From Nitrospira sp. (lineage in GTDB: Bacteria > Nitrospirota > Nitrospiria > Nitrospirales > Nitrospiraceae), in contig JACOEF010000282.1 of the NCBI GenBank assembly GCA_024998705.1, forward strand, positions 1-13,131: 13,131 nt of DNA. The letters are read 5' to 3'. The translations under genes and the position numbers were made by a program. Below are positions 773 through 11,578 of the stretch, one piece after another (position 1 is the stretch's first letter; the number at the start of each line of letters is the position of its first letter). The notes beneath the pieces are model-generated. The model was given only the letters and a program-made list of their open reading frames with translations. It did no database searches and was not told the origin of the DNA.

Positions 773-1309
773 ATGATCGAAAAGAAGATCTGCATGCTGG
801 GCGCCTTTGCCGTGGGAAAAACCAGTCTGGTGCGTCGCTTTGTCACCAGTTGTTTTTCTGAACAGTATCAGACGACCATCGGCGTGACAGTCGACAAGAA
901 AACCATGACCGTGGACGGCCAGCCCATCACATTAGTGCTCTGGGATCTCTACGGAGAAGACGAATTCCAGAAGCTGCGGCGCTCGTATCTGCGTGGAGCG
1001 TCCGCATACCTGTTGGTCCTGGATGGAATGCGTCGGGCCACGCTGGACATCGCCTCACGGATTCAACAGACCGCCCTCGAAACCCTCGGCCCGGTGCCGT
1101 TTGTCGTCCTCATCAATAAACTGGACCGACGATCGGACTGGGAAATGACCGACCAAGACCTCGCACAGTTGACACAACGTGGCTGGACGGTGCTCCTGAG
1201 CAGCGCCAAGACAGGACAGGGCGTCGAAGAGGCGTTCACGGCGCTCACGCGCGCCATGCGGCTCACTGCCCAAAAGACACCCTCCCCGGGGAGTACCGAT
1301 GGCGCATAA
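773..1309 (+). CDS. Small Ras/Rab-like GTPase
   Basis: This 178-residue protein is a stand-alone P-loop GTPase of the Ras/Rab/MglA-like class, presumably a cytoplasmic GTP/GDP switch. Visible motifs in order are G1 GAFAVGKTS (residues 10-18), switch I TTIGV (34-38), G3 WDLYGED (57-63), G4 NKLD (115-118) and G5 SSAK (143-146). The G3 motif departs from the Ras form DTAGQE: the catalytic Gln is Glu62 and the Ala is Tyr60, so intrinsic hydrolysis may be slow or need a dedicated activator. There is no C-terminal Cys for lipidation. It starts 12 bp after the OmpA-domain gene with only a weak ribosome site, and its last 11 bp overlap the start of the sigma-54 activator. Both features point to translational coupling and to a link between envelope sensing and transcription. 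The family assignment is secure; the partner and role are inference. Confidence 0.93.
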   Translation: MIEKKICMLGAFAVGKTSLVRRFVTSCFSEQYQTTIGVTVDKKTMTVDGQPITLVLWDLYGEDEFQKLRRSYLRGASAYLLVLDGMRRATLDIASRIQQTALETLGPVPFVVLINKLDRRSDWEMTDQDLAQLTQRGWTVLLSSAKTGQGVEEAFTALTRAMRLTAQKTPSPGSTDGA

Positions 1310-3089
1310 CACAAGCCCAGCCGCGGCCGACCGGCTGTATGCAGCCCTCCTGGAGCGATTCCAATTTGCGGTCCTCGAACACGTGACCGACACACAGTTC
1401 CGCATCATCGGACACCCACCGGCCTGGCTCTTCCATCTCTACCCGGAGGCCCAACACAACTTGCAGCTGTCAGTGGATGCGCGCACACCGGTGCTCCTGA
1501 ATTTCCTCGCCGACGCAGCAGAGGCCTGGGGCATAGACGGCGACTCGATCACGCGCTCAGGCTTTTGGACCGAGCAAAGGGGAACCGACGAACCCTGGCA
1601 CGTTGAGGCCATGGCACTGCGACAGGACTCCTGCCGTCTCTTGCTGATCCAGCGAAGTACAGCGACCTATGACCAACAGGCCACGCTTCTCCAGCGAGCA
1701 CGTGAACAGGTCCTCCAGCAGCACGAACATGATCGCGCACACCAGCGCACCCAGCAGAAACTCACTACGCAACTGGTAGACATGGAGCGGTCGCGGGATG
1801 ATGTCGCCGTCATTTTACAGCAGCTTGGGCTCGCCACCCTGCTGATCGACCAGGAAGGGCAGATACGCTTTCTCAGTGCGTCCGCAGCTCGCCTTCTGGA
1901 CACACCCAGCAATCCCGATGATCTCCGTTGGGACACTCTGCTTCTGCTCTCAAAAGGCGATCGGCTGGCCCTGCAATCGATGCTGCGACAACCCGCATCC
2001 GCACGGGAACGAGTCCGGTGTCGCATCGAGACCCAAACCGGGCGACACCTTTGGCTCGACATCGAAGTGCAGGACGACCCGCGAGACACGGGAATCAAAA
2101 TCCTGTTCCTCCACGACATGACCGACGTCCACCATCTCCGGCGTCTGCTGGAGCTGAAGGCGCACTACCACGATCTGGTCGGCAAGAGCCGCATCATGTC
2201 CCAGATCTATGAACAGATCCAGGAGTTGGCCCGTGTCGACGCAACCGTTTTGATCGAAGGGGAGACCGGGACTGGAAAAGAATTAGTAGCGCGCGCGCTC
2301 CACCAAGCGAGTGCCCGGCGAACAGGCCCCTTCATCGCGGCCAATTGCGCAGGACTCACAGACTCGCTCTTGGGCAGCCAATTGTTCGGCCACAAGAAGG
2401 GCGCGTTTACCGGAGCGATCGACGACCAGCAAGGGCTCTTCGAGGCCGCCCATGGCGGCGTCTTGTTTCTCGATGAGATCGGCGATATTCCCCACACCGT
2501 CCAGACCCACCTGCTTCGTGTGCTGCAAGAGAAAGAAGTCACGCGACTGGGTGAGACCAAACCGAGAAAAGTCAACGTGCGAGTGTTGACGGCCACCCAC
2601 CATAATTTGAGCCAGGATGTAGCGAAGGGCACCTTCCGCGCTGATCTGCTCTACCGGATTCGAGTCGCACGAATCCAGCTCCCCCCGCTCAGGGAGCGAA
2701 AAGAAGATATTCCCCTCCTCGTCACCTCGTTCCTCAGCGAAGGACGGGCCAGTATGGGGAAAGCCATCCATCGGGCCGGCCCGGCCGCGTTGGCGACACT
2801 GATGGAATATCACTGGCCCGGCAATGTGCGGGAGCTCAAGAGCACGATCGAGTGCGCGATGATTCATTGCAAAGGGGACACACTCGACGCCACGGACCTT
2901 CCGCCGGAACTTCGACAGGTGCCATCCGATGCTCCATCCGAAACGGTCAGGCCCGGAGACGAGCGCAGTCGATTTGTGGCCGCTCTTGAACAAGCTCGTG
3001 GGAACAGGACCAAGGCCGCACGCCTCCTGGGAATGAGCCGCGCCACCTTCTACCGCCGTTTGAATGAACTCGGTCTCCCAACCGGGTAA
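1299..3089 (+). CDS. PAS-containing sigma-54-dependent enhancer-binding activator
   Basis: The product (596 residues) is a bacterial enhancer-binding protein that uses ATP hydrolysis to open promoters held by sigma-54 RNA polymerase. The N-terminal part (about 1-118) looks like a divergent PAS-like sensory module. It is followed by a charged probable coiled coil (about 122-175) and a PAS domain (about 168-278). The AAA+ core has Walker A GETGTGKE (321-328), the sigma-54-contacting GAFTGA loop (368-373), Walker B LFLDE (389-393), the arginine-finger region FRADLLYR (447-454) and WPGNVRE (506-512). A Fis-type helix-turn-helix lies at 566-592. There is no response-regulator receiver domain, so control is not by a classic phosphorelay; the upstream GTPase is a candidate input. 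The ATG at 1299 follows GGGGAG at 1288-1293 and overlaps the GTPase gene. The function class is very secure; the signal is unknown. Confidence 0.97.
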   Translation: MAHNTSPAAADRLYAALLERFQFAVLEHVTDTQFRIIGHPPAWLFHLYPEAQHNLQLSVDARTPVLLNFLADAAEAWGIDGDSITRSGFWTEQRGTDEPWHVEAMALRQDSCRLLLIQRSTATYDQQATLLQRAREQVLQQHEHDRAHQRTQQKLTTQLVDMERSRDDVAVILQQLGLATLLIDQEGQIRFLSASAARLLDTPSNPDDLRWDTLLLLSKGDRLALQSMLRQPASARERVRCRIETQTGRHLWLDIEVQDDPRDTGIKILFLHDMTDVHHLRRLLELKAHYHDLVGKSRIMSQIYEQIQELARVDATVLIEGETGTGKELVARALHQASARRTGPFIAANCAGLTDSLLGSQLFGHKKGAFTGAIDDQQGLFEAAHGGVLFLDEIGDIPHTVQTHLLRVLQEKEVTRLGETKPRKVNVRVLTATHHNLSQDVAKGTFRADLLYRIRVARIQLPPLRERKEDIPLLVTSFLSEGRASMGKAIHRAGPAALATLMEYHWPGNVRELKSTIECAMIHCKGDTLDATDLPPELRQVPSDAPSETVRPGDERSRFVAALEQARGNRTKAARLLGMSRATFYRRLNELGLPTG

Positions 3090-3120: not shown

Positions 3121-3156
3121 TGTCTCGCACTGTCTCGCGCGAGACAGTGCGAGACA
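3121..3156. promoter_or_regulatory. Perfect 36-bp palindrome, likely enhancer (UAS)
   Basis: Every base from 3121 to 3156 pairs with its mirror base, with the centre between 3138 and 3139. The palindrome contains four half-sites, TGTCTC at 3121 and 3131 and the inverted GAGACA at 3141 and 3151, each exactly 10 bp apart and so on one helix face. It lies 32 bp after the activator gene and about 100 bp upstream of a -24/-12 promoter, the usual enhancer distance. I infer that it binds dimers of the neighbouring Fis-type activator. A terminator is the alternative, but there is no T-run. Confidence 0.75.
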
Positions 3157-3254
3157 CCTGCGTTCGTCTCACCGGCTCGCTCTCCTGCCAGATGCCTAAG
3201 GGTCCTCACGCACGTGGGCGCATCTGATCGGCATGATGCAATCTGTACCGATCG

Positions 3255-3270
3255 TGGCACAGAGCTTGAT
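3255..3270 (+). promoter_or_regulatory. Sigma-54 (-24/-12) promoter
   Basis: The sequence TGGCAC-AGAGC-TTGAT matches the consensus TGGCACG-N4-TTGCW with the correct GG to GC spacing; the main deviation is A in place of the C of the -12 GC. Expected initiation is near 3281, about 75 bp before the LuxR-type gene. The palindrome centre would then sit at about -143. Its location directly after a sigma-54 activator gene makes a chance match less likely. Confidence 0.7.
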
Positions 3271-3356: not shown

Positions 3357-3671
3357 ATGGACAAGCTCGTACCCCTTTCACAACCACGGCCGGATGAGCC
3401 AACCGCCCGGGAACGCGAAATACTGAATCACATTTGGGCTGGCCTGACGAGTCACGAAATTGCCGCCCGGCTTCAGATCGCCCCCAAAACGGTAGAATCC
3501 CACCGCGCTAATCTGTTGCGAAAATTCCGTGCATCCAACTCGGCACAACTACTCCGCCTGGCACTGCTTGAGGGAATTCTTCAAGTTCCGTCGACACATC
3601 CGACCCCCTCTGCTATCGTACGGAGGACTCAACACCCCAAAGGGGTACGGAAACTGGCCAGCCTCAAATGA
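3357..3671 (+). CDS. Single-domain LuxR/GerE-type DNA-binding regulator
   Basis: The protein (104 residues) is essentially one GerE/LuxR helix-turn-helix domain, with EPTAREREILNHIWAGL (14-30), SHEIAARLQIAPKTVESHR (32-50) and NLLRKF (52-57). Residues after about 76 form a basic, probably disordered tail. No receiver, autoinducer-binding or other sensory domain is present, so its activity is probably set by expression level or by a partner. The ATG at 3357 is chosen over an in-frame GTG at 3306 because AGGAGG lies at 3347-3352 and similarity starts only after this Met. The gene follows a predicted sigma-54 promoter and enhancer, so it is the most likely direct target of the activator encoded upstream and would form a second regulatory tier. 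The domain call is secure; its targets are unknown. Confidence 0.9.
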   Translation: MDKLVPLSQPRPDEPTAREREILNHIWAGLTSHEIAARLQIAPKTVESHRANLLRKFRASNSAQLLRLALLEGILQVPSTHPTPSAIVRRTQHPKGVRKLASLK

Positions 3672-4041: not shown

Positions 4042-5154
4042 ATGATACGTCGACTCGGATCCCTCTTTTGTGCGCTTTTGGTCATTATGCTTGCGACCTC
4101 CATTGCGCGAGCTGAACCTCCGACCTCAGCGGACACGGCCCCCGCGGCAATGGCCCTGGATGCCGTCACCCTCAAGGACGGAACGGTGATCTATGGTCAA
4201 GTCCTTGGCATGGTCGCGGACGAATTGCACATCAAGACCAGTTTCGGACCAACCGCCGGGGAGGACATCGTCAAAGTCATGTGGCCGAACGTGGCCAAAC
4301 CCACCGTCAATCGTCCCGTGCCGTTTATGCTCAAAGAAGGCACGACGGTGGTCGGCACCGCACAGTCTGCCGAACCTGGGAGCATGCTCCTGAAGGTTGC
4401 GCCGACCGGAACATCCATGGCGATTCCGCTCGATACGGTAGTGGGAATGAACCAACCTTCCGTCATCTATACCGGCGCGATCCAGGCCGGGTTCTCGCAA
4501 ACGACCGGCAACAGCCACTTGCGGAACGGCAGTTTACTGGGCGAACTCTCCGCCCGCAGCGAATCACTTCGCCTGACGATCCTGGGACGCTATATCTATG
4601 GCGATAACGCCCAAGCCCTCATCGTGAGAAACAGCCGCGGCACCATCAAGCTTGACTTCTTCCTTTCGAAGCGATTGTATTGGTTCGCGTCCGCCTACTT
4701 CGAACAAGATACCTTTCAAGATCTCAAACTGCGCACGGCGCTTGCCACCGGCCCCGGCTATCAATTCCTCGATCGTGGTGACCTGGCCGGTATCTTCAAA
4801 GACATGACCCTCTGGGTGGAAGGCGGCGCCGCCTACTTCAACGAAGATTTTAAGCTCGCCGACGATAAATCCAGCACCCGCGGTCGATGGGCCGTGAAAT
4901 GGAATTGGCCGCTCTGGGGCGGCGATCAGGTCAGCCTCTACCACTTCCAGGAAGGGTTTCAGTCGATGGCGAATTCGAAAGACCTCTACGTAACGGCCGA
5001 CACCGGCTTGCGCTTCAAGGTGTGGGGAGGGTTGGTCAGCGGGTTTCAGTGGACCATGCGGTACAACAAGAACCCGCCACCGGGCGTGTCGGATACCGAC
5101 AATCTCTATCTGATCACGCTGGGATATAGCTTCGACACCAGCCGGAAACAGTAG
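4042..5154 (+). CDS. DUF481-family outer-membrane protein with N-terminal repeat region
   Basis: This 370-residue protein begins with a Sec signal peptide (residues 1-24, cleavage after ARA). Residues about 37-145 contain two similar beta-rich segments, each starting with a KDGTV or KEGTT pattern followed by G-V/A, which may be small SH3/Lsm-like barrels. From about 147 onward, the [19 protein letters not shown] segment, alternating aromatic strands, and the terminal YLITLGYSF are typical of DUF481, a predicted outer-membrane beta-barrel family that includes YdiY of E. coli. The function of the family is poorly known, with salt or acid induction reported for some members. The start at 4042 is fixed by AGGAGGAG seven bases upstream and by the signal peptide. 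It precedes mscL by 50 bp, which fits an osmotic or envelope context. Family assignment is confident; function is not. Confidence 0.9.
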
Positions 5155-5204: not shown

Positions 5205-5630
5205 ATGAGCATGATGAGTGAATTTAAGGAGTTTGCCGTAAAAGGCAATGTGCGCGATATGGCCGTGGGAGTAATCATCGGCGGGGCATTCGGAAAGATC
5301 GTCTCATCCGTCGTCAGCGATATTCTGATGCCCCCCATCGGGCTGTTGATGGGAAAAGTGGACTTCTCAAGCCTGTTCATCCCGTTGACCGAGGACGCCA
5401 AAGGGAAATCGCTGGCCGCAGCCAAAGCCGCCGGAGCCGCCACCATCAACTACGGCGTTTTCTTGCAAACCTTGCTCGACTTTACTATTCTGGCCTTCGT
5501 GATTTTCATGGTCATCAAACAAATGAACCGTTTTAAGAAAGCGACCCCTCCCGGGCCGCCGCCTGCCCCGCCCAAGGAAGAAGTGCTCCTGACAGCAATC
5601 CGAGATCTCCTAAAGAATCAACGTCACTGA
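5205..5630 (+). CDS. mscL: Large-conductance mechanosensitive channel MscL
   Basis: The product (141 residues, against 136 in E. coli) is the membrane channel that opens at near-lytic tension to release solutes on hypo-osmotic shock. The amphipathic N-terminus [19 protein letters not shown] leads into the pore-lining helix TM1 (about 18-48) with the signature [10 protein letters not shown] and MPPIGLL. A periplasmic loop rich in Ala and Lys (about 62-80) follows, then TM2 (about 86-107). A Pro-rich linker (114-123) precedes the C-terminal helix [13 protein letters not shown] that forms the cytoplasmic bundle. A strong AAGGAGG at 5191-5197 supports the ATG at 5205. No separate promoter is obvious, so it may be read with the DUF481 gene. 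Confidence 0.97.
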
Positions 5631-11495: not shown

Positions 11496-11578
11496 GCGAG
11501 AGTGGCGGAACTGGCAGACGCGCGAGACTTAGGATCTCGTGGGTAACCGTGGGGGTTCAAGTCCCCCCTCTCGCACCA
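11496..11578 (+). tRNA. tRNA-Leu (anticodon UAG)
   Basis: The acceptor stem GCGAGAG (11496-11502) pairs with CTCTCGC (11568-11574), followed by A73 and an encoded CCA (11576-11578). The anticodon stem CGAGA/TCTCG encloses the loop CTTAGGA, with anticodon TAG at 11530-11532 reading CUN leucine codons. An extended variable arm (11540-11550) typical of type II tRNAs and a T arm GGGGG-TTCAAGT-CCCCC are all present. Confidence 0.97.

Follow-up and report, generated by a model that had tools for sequence, protein, structure and literature searches.

The upstream activating sequence of NifA has the form TGT-N10-ACA. In Escherichia coli, NorR acts on norVW through three enhancer sites, which the accessible portion of the source describes as essential for activation and as a scaffold for the NorR oligomer (PMC2941729). 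For the PrsR/PEP-CTERM system, excerpts of the original report set a motif 1 beside a sigma-54 motif 2 and give the sigma-54 promoter pattern as -24(GG)/-12(GC) (PMC1569441). In Nitrospira, quorum sensing is described together with rpoN co-expression in the available passages of PMC8553950. An enhancer site in Nitrospira was described in none of the matches listed from open-licence PMC papers, and a literature search with the bare 6-mers gave unrelated papers (best 15 of 3,739).

Here, we analyse a half-site array in a 13,131-nt stretch of Nitrospira DNA (the window), located between the gene of a sigma-54 activator and a sigma-54-like promoter. The array is an ordinary kind of switch and a clean example of it, with a sister copy that has a different site. 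Judged by sequence comparison, it is most likely the means by which the adjacent activator turns on the genes that follow.

The locus and its palindrome

The window opens with a gene for an OmpA-domain protein (2–760, 5' end beyond the window), the first of a conserved OmpA-GTPase-EBP set. It is followed by a Ras/Roc-like small GTPase gene (773–1309), whose 3' end overlaps by 11 nt the start of the gene for the sigma-54 activator (EBP, 1299–3089). The first gene past the putative promoter encodes a stand-alone GerE/LuxR-type HTH protein of 104 amino acids (3357–3671), after which come, in conserved order, the genes for a DUF481 protein (4042–5154) and a MscL mechanosensitive channel (5205–5630), all on the forward strand; two OmpA genes also lie downstream of the GerE gene. 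An Rfam search of the window at the gathering threshold returned only a tRNA at 11496–11575. The GTPase gene adjoins the EBP gene in 28/28 stretches that contain the whole EBP, with G039 and G159 entering the count twice.

Between the EBP stop at 3089 and the next gene start at 3357, positions 3121–3156 read TGTCTCGCAC TGTCTCGCGC GAGACAGTGC GAGACA, an exact zero-loop palindrome with arms of 18 bp. The original prediction had described a perfect 36-bp palindrome outside a gene, with TGTCTC beginning at 3121 and 3131 and GAGACA at 3141 and 3151; the half-sites start where it had put them, and the symmetry was confirmed. That such symmetry is unlikely by chance, as it had also claimed, is borne out: arms of at least 18 bp are expected 2.5e-7 times per window and 8e-5 times per 4.16 Mb, the longest arm in 200 first-order Markov simulations of the window was 11, and the next longest zero-loop palindrome within the window has arms of 7 bp. 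The four half-sites are phased at 10 bp. Half-sites 2 and 3 are convergent and one turn apart, as expected for a dimer, and form the inner dyad TGTCTC-N4-GAGACA (3131–3146), which we propose as the core dimer site. Half-sites 4 and 5 are divergent and 15 bp apart, the fifth being a forward-strand GTCTC at 3166–3170.

The palindrome starts 31 bp past the EBP gene and ends 98 bp before a putative forward-strand sigma-54 promoter, TGGCAC-N5-TTGAT (TGGCACAGAGCTTGAT, 3255–3270), with GG at 3256–3257 and GA at 3268–3269. Of the original placement next to a Fis-type activator and upstream of a -24/-12 promoter, the neighbour stands and so does a GG-bearing element, but the -12 reads GA and not the canonical GC. 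The predicted transcription start lies at about 3281, which would put the dyad centre near -142.

The EBP comprises an N-terminal region, a weak PAS, an AAA+ part and a Fis-type HTH_8, with domain matches to Sigma54_activat, HTH_8 and, weakly, PAS; it carries GAFTGA at residue 368, and its recognition helix reads SRATFYRRL. The adjacent gene thus has the Sigma54_activat domain, GAFTGA and HTH looked for in the cognate activator of a sigma-54 enhancer. The genome also contains rpoN. Among the NCBIfam matches listed (25 of 33), NifA is the top match of the EBP (337 bits, cut-off 529), the others including NtrC (319, cut-off 559), NorR (301.5, cut-off 476) and PEP_resp_reg (297, cut-off 503), and none of the families listed reaches its cut-off. 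With 337 bits against 529, the EBP is therefore not a NifA, and we rejected an assignment as NifA, NtrC, NorR or PrsR equivalog, every score being below its cut-off.

Conservation of array and promoter in Nitrospira

Our genus set comprised 29 genomes, searched with the EBP at E≤1e-80. Matches were found in 28 genomes and are orthologous by identity in 26 (L005–L030, own included), the close orthologous loci including that of the Candidatus Nitrospira defluvii chromosome. G009 has no EBP match, G015 has only 45–48% matches to the AAA+ and HTH part, and G017 has only a partial match of the type of EBP-A, the sister activator treated below. Twenty-four of the 26 loci are complete, in that they reach the EBP stop. 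L026 and L028 are cut by contig ends, and the arrays of these two genomes lie on other contigs (L135, L136); the G002 array stands directly past the missing EBP tail, and the G011 array, ahead of the GerE gene, at the end of a contig.

GTCTC/GAGAC half-sites follow the EBP stop in 24/24 complete loci, own included, and in the alignment of these loci half-site 5 never varies and half-site 1 hardly does. Conservation of multiple half-sites in orthologues is what is looked for in an enhancer. The original prediction had held that a lack of the palindrome at orthologous loci would speak against it. Taken literally, the palindrome is indeed lacking there, because only our own locus among the 24 has the perfect dyad; what the orthologues conserve is the half-site array. 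The perfect palindromy of the window is a lineage-specific sharpening of a conserved, incompletely palindromic array, and the symmetry as such is incidental.

Is the palindrome a DNA site or an RNA hairpin? A terminator, possibly factor-dependent, or a 3' stabiliser of the OmpA-GTPase-EBP operon would be well placed 31 nt past the stop codon, where the palindrome RNA forms a 16-bp stem and the surrounding 115 nt have a folding energy of -38.1 kcal/mol (z -3.3, with 1/200 shuffles equally good). However, no terminator-like site was called at the palindrome, no U-run follows it, and the long hairpin is confined to our own locus; at the 23 remaining complete loci the best arm score is ≤9, and single half-sites and the distance to the promoter are conserved. 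We then analysed the columns of 19 gap-free orthologous arrays, taken from the 24 loci after leaving out our own genome and excluding L017, L027, L029 and L030, which fell below the ungapped score limit. Mean information was 1.80 bits in half-site columns and 0.67 bits in spacers, and at the spacer positions paired in the window hairpin, complementary letters made up 35% of cases, where column composition predicts 33%. Since the half-sites are conserved, the spacers are not and covariation is absent, selection appears to act on an array of DNA half-sites; a conserved hairpin would have kept its spacer pairing. We therefore consider an RNA hairpin very improbable, as stem and spacers are not conserved and the U-run is absent. 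An intrinsic terminator, which would call for a G+C-rich stem, a U-run and a conserved structure, was rejected, the last two being absent.

Downstream of the array, GGCAY-N5-TTG is found in 24/24 complete genus loci, with GG-N10-GA/GT (A or T for the canonical C) at each of the 24. The first exact half-site precedes the GG by 134–137 bp in 21/24 loci (19 directly, and also L010 and L012 once a stray half-site lying farther upstream is disregarded), by 125 bp in L025 and by 124 bp in L029 and L030; in L027, L029 and L030 the first exact half-site is half-site 2, because half-site 1 is degenerate. The spacing falls within the 80–200 bp looked for between an enhancer and its -24/-12 promoter, but the -12 letters depart from the GC looked for there. 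What the sequences show directly is a conserved array at a nearly constant distance from GGCAY-N5-TTG, itself conserved.

A long array pattern (≤3 mismatches) matched one place per genome in 23/29 genomes, and its reversed control matched none. Twenty of the 23 places lie directly past the EBP gene, and the other three (G002, G011 and G017) before the GerE gene. The genomes without a match are G009 and G015, which have no EBP orthologue, and G004, G008, G020 and G021, where the array has diverged or its spacing has shifted. In our own assembly (88.8% complete), the genome-wide search for TGTCTC-N4-GAGACA that the original prediction had proposed gave the exact site once, and 7 places at ≤1 mismatch against 2 for the reversed-pattern control. 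Perfect symmetry would also suit a REP-like palindrome, repeated or mobile, or structural DNA of another kind. We rejected a repeat because the site is single copy, both as the exact inner dyad in its own genome and as the long array in the 23 genomes, where it keeps to the EBP or GerE gene; such an origin is extremely improbable.

Three genus genomes lack an EBP orthologue (G009, G015 and G017). All three have a broken orthologous DUF481 gene, interrupted in G017 and present as fragments in G009 and G015, and each also has a distant DUF481 protein (~30% identical). No TGTCTC/GAGACA is left in the G009 stretch, while G017 keeps a recognisable array and the GerE gene, with no EBP adjacent and GGCGC-N5-TTA as its promoter element. 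The broken DUF481 genes would fit a loss of the activator that made the operon dispensable, in three genomes only and with draft assemblies that can err. Of these three genomes (loci L133, L198, L202 and L203), G017 and G009 give MscL alignments that span the whole protein.

Half-sites and activators beyond the genus

Across the family, EBP orthologues at E≤1e-170 occur in 46/175 genomes and 4/22 genera; in genus g15, 36/79 genomes have EBP matches at E≤1e-135, with at most 16 initial candidates scored per genome. The 20 matches from outside the genus at E≤1e-170 (L115–L132, L137 and L138) come from three other genera, and at 18 of these loci at least three GTCTC/GAGAC half-sites lie within 60 bp past the EBP. 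By eye, L123 has two half-sites and a degenerate one; L126 has none by the cluster criterion. The geometry of the array varies between genera (for example, TGTCTCATGAGACA in several g15 loci), the half-site is constant, and the EBP recognition helix reads SRAT[FL]YRR across genera. A promoter scan covered 20 main loci (14 g15, 4 g17, 1 g9 and 1 g1; the fetched g15 loci L121, L126, L127, L131, L137 and L138 were left out). TGGCAY-N5-TTG[AT] was the best-scoring element in 14/14 g15 loci (tied in L125), and the g9 locus has CGGCAC-N5-TTGAT. The four g17 loci carry a weaker TGGCAY element in which GAG replaces the TTG-like -12, and it is not the top element in L117 and L155.

These loci bear on whether the array could instead be the operator of the downstream GerE/LuxR-type protein, which would then regulate itself. 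A GerE-domain gene does stand past the array in the examined g1 and g9 loci, a REC-GerE protein is encoded further downstream in the g15 locus L119 in place of the stand-alone one, and the array of G017 accompanies a GerE gene without an adjacent EBP. However, tblastn found no stand-alone GerE protein next to the array in the g15 loci examined, and there TGTCTC(A) is unchanged and the EBP helix is kept. In addition, half-sites and a -24/-12 element precede a gene without a GerE domain, and the placement of the array far upstream of the -24/-12 element fits an enhancer. Because g15 retains the half-site and the EBP helix without the stand-alone GerE protein, the comparison argues that the EBP, and not the GerE protein, dictates the half-site; a GerE operator is quite improbable.

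In g15, GTCTC/GAGAC half-sites, in part with the geometry of the inner dyad at 3131–3146, also stand upstream of a second promoter element, GGAAY-N5-TTGC, which is followed by an orphan receiver-domain gene. This gene, with its canonical -24/-12, is a likely second target of the motif (L149, 4780–5518; loci L168–L197). It occurs in 33/175 family genomes, all g15, and 30 of its 34 matches were fetched for the following counts: at least two half-sites lie within 45 bp in 24/30 loci (up to 600 bp upstream, two loci offering <200 bp), and GGAAY-N5-TTGC is the best element in 27/30. The -12 letters are TTGA/TTGT at EBP (24/24) and EBP-A (22/22) targets and TTGC at this second g15 target (27/30).

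Among the 33 genomes with the receiver gene, 22 have an EBP match and 11 have none at E≤1e-135. We examined nine of these 11: L181, L183 and L195 have an exact TGTCTC-N4-GAGACA, and L175 and L177 a GAGAC/GTCTC/GAGAC trio, so that at least 5/11 keep the dyad or the trio. With 11/33 genomes lacking an EBP match, reading of the second target exclusively by the EBP was not upheld, and this is the chief finding against such a pairing; since the motif is kept, these genomes may have another activator that reads it, unless their EBP escaped the search.

A family-wide search for TGTCTC-N0-4-GAGACA and TGAGACA-N5-9-TGTCTCA gave 20 places that were inspected among the matches listed. Alignment identifies five as EBP loci (L154, L155, L160, L162 and L163), and a sixth place, L152, contains a duplicated EBP tail; L148, L149, L153 and L147 carry the orphan-receiver promoter motif (in L147 the contig stops short of the gene), the orphan-receiver promoter of G056 accounts for L161, and nine are other dyads (L150, L151, L156–L159 and L164–L166). 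Two g15 genomes have, downstream, a fragment of the EBP C-terminus (residues 542–593) together with a second array (L127, 4332–4658; L152, 2784–3732); DNA-binding domain and array appear to have been duplicated together there.

The sister locus offers a second view of the pairing between activator and site. EBP-A gave 23 matches (62–66% over the AAA+ and HTH part), of which 22 were used, G024 being left out; a partial, divergent copy in G017 (helix SRRTFYPR) was also kept out of the counts, and none was found at E≤1e-80 in the window's own incomplete assembly. EBP-A has the architecture REC-AAA+-HTH and follows an ORF that by eye is hybrid-kinase-like. The layout is that of the EBP locus, with an array and then TGGCAY-N5-TTGAT in 22/22; in L033 and L034 a GerE gene lies further down. 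Two features differ: (i) the half-site is TGRCACA/TGTGYCA, with 1–3 copies in the 200 bp before the promoter at EBP-A and 0–1 at EBP, whereas TGTCTC/GAGACA has 2–4 at EBP (24 loci) and 0–1 at EBP-A (22 loci); and (ii) the recognition helix is SRRTFYRR in 22/22, against SRAT[FL]YRR in EBP, a single A-to-R difference. This pairing of helix and half-site is correlative and drawn from two groups of paralogues. It is possible, if somewhat doubtful, that a Nitrospiraceae activator family runs two paralogous circuits, a PAS/GTPase-linked EBP and a kinase-linked EBP-A, each with its own array and TTGA/TTGT sigma-54 promoter and each feeding a GerE regulator, the two being insulated by a change of A582 to R matched by one of GTCTC to GTGYC, with the Ras-like GTPase gating one of them.

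Proposed mechanism and known systems

What is the function of the array? Positions 3121–3170 very probably serve the sigma-54 activator whose gene directly precedes them as its upstream activating sequence (enhancer). The original enhancer interpretation is supported by phylogenetic footprinting, by the array following the EBP into other genera and by the sister locus. Its "two-dimer" form is not established, because five half-sites are present and two to three dimers are possible. Two or three EBP dimers would contact the GTCTC/GAGAC half-sites with their Fis-type HTH domains, with TGTCTC-N4-GAGACA at 3131–3146 as the core dimer site, and would assemble an AAA+ oligomer. This oligomer would loop onto sigma-54 RNA polymerase at 3255–3270, ~140 bp away, and open the promoter for the GerE regulator, perhaps also for the DUF481-MscL-OmpA genes. 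The activating signal may involve the small GTPase: the 11-nt overlap and the gene order suggest, as a guess, a GTPase-gated activator.

For Nitrospira, which oxidise nitrite, the locus offers a defined candidate site with its activator, promoter and target operon, all testable in vitro without culturing the organism. The paralogue pair EBP/EBP-A, moreover, allows a direct test of a specificity switch, activator helix versus half-site.

How does the locus compare with known systems? TGTCTC-N4-GAGACA is itself a TGT-N10-ACA sequence, like the NifA site, but the target genes seen at the Nitrospira locus are not nif genes. The PrsR system, as far as the excerpts of its report go, shares an activator motif upstream of a -24/-12 motif, recognised by comparative genomics; in contrast, PrsR is there of the receiver type with sites before many genes, whereas Nitrospira has one long array per genome, by its activator. 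The nearest worked example for a multi-site enhancer is NorR, which like the EBP is an AAA+ protein that carries GAFTGA and binds DNA with a C-terminal domain, and which has several sites by the activator gene and upstream of a sigma-54 promoter. Unlike NorR, the Nitrospira activator has a PAS-type N-terminus and a GTPase neighbour, and its half-site is (T)GTCTC(A), packed at 10 bp.
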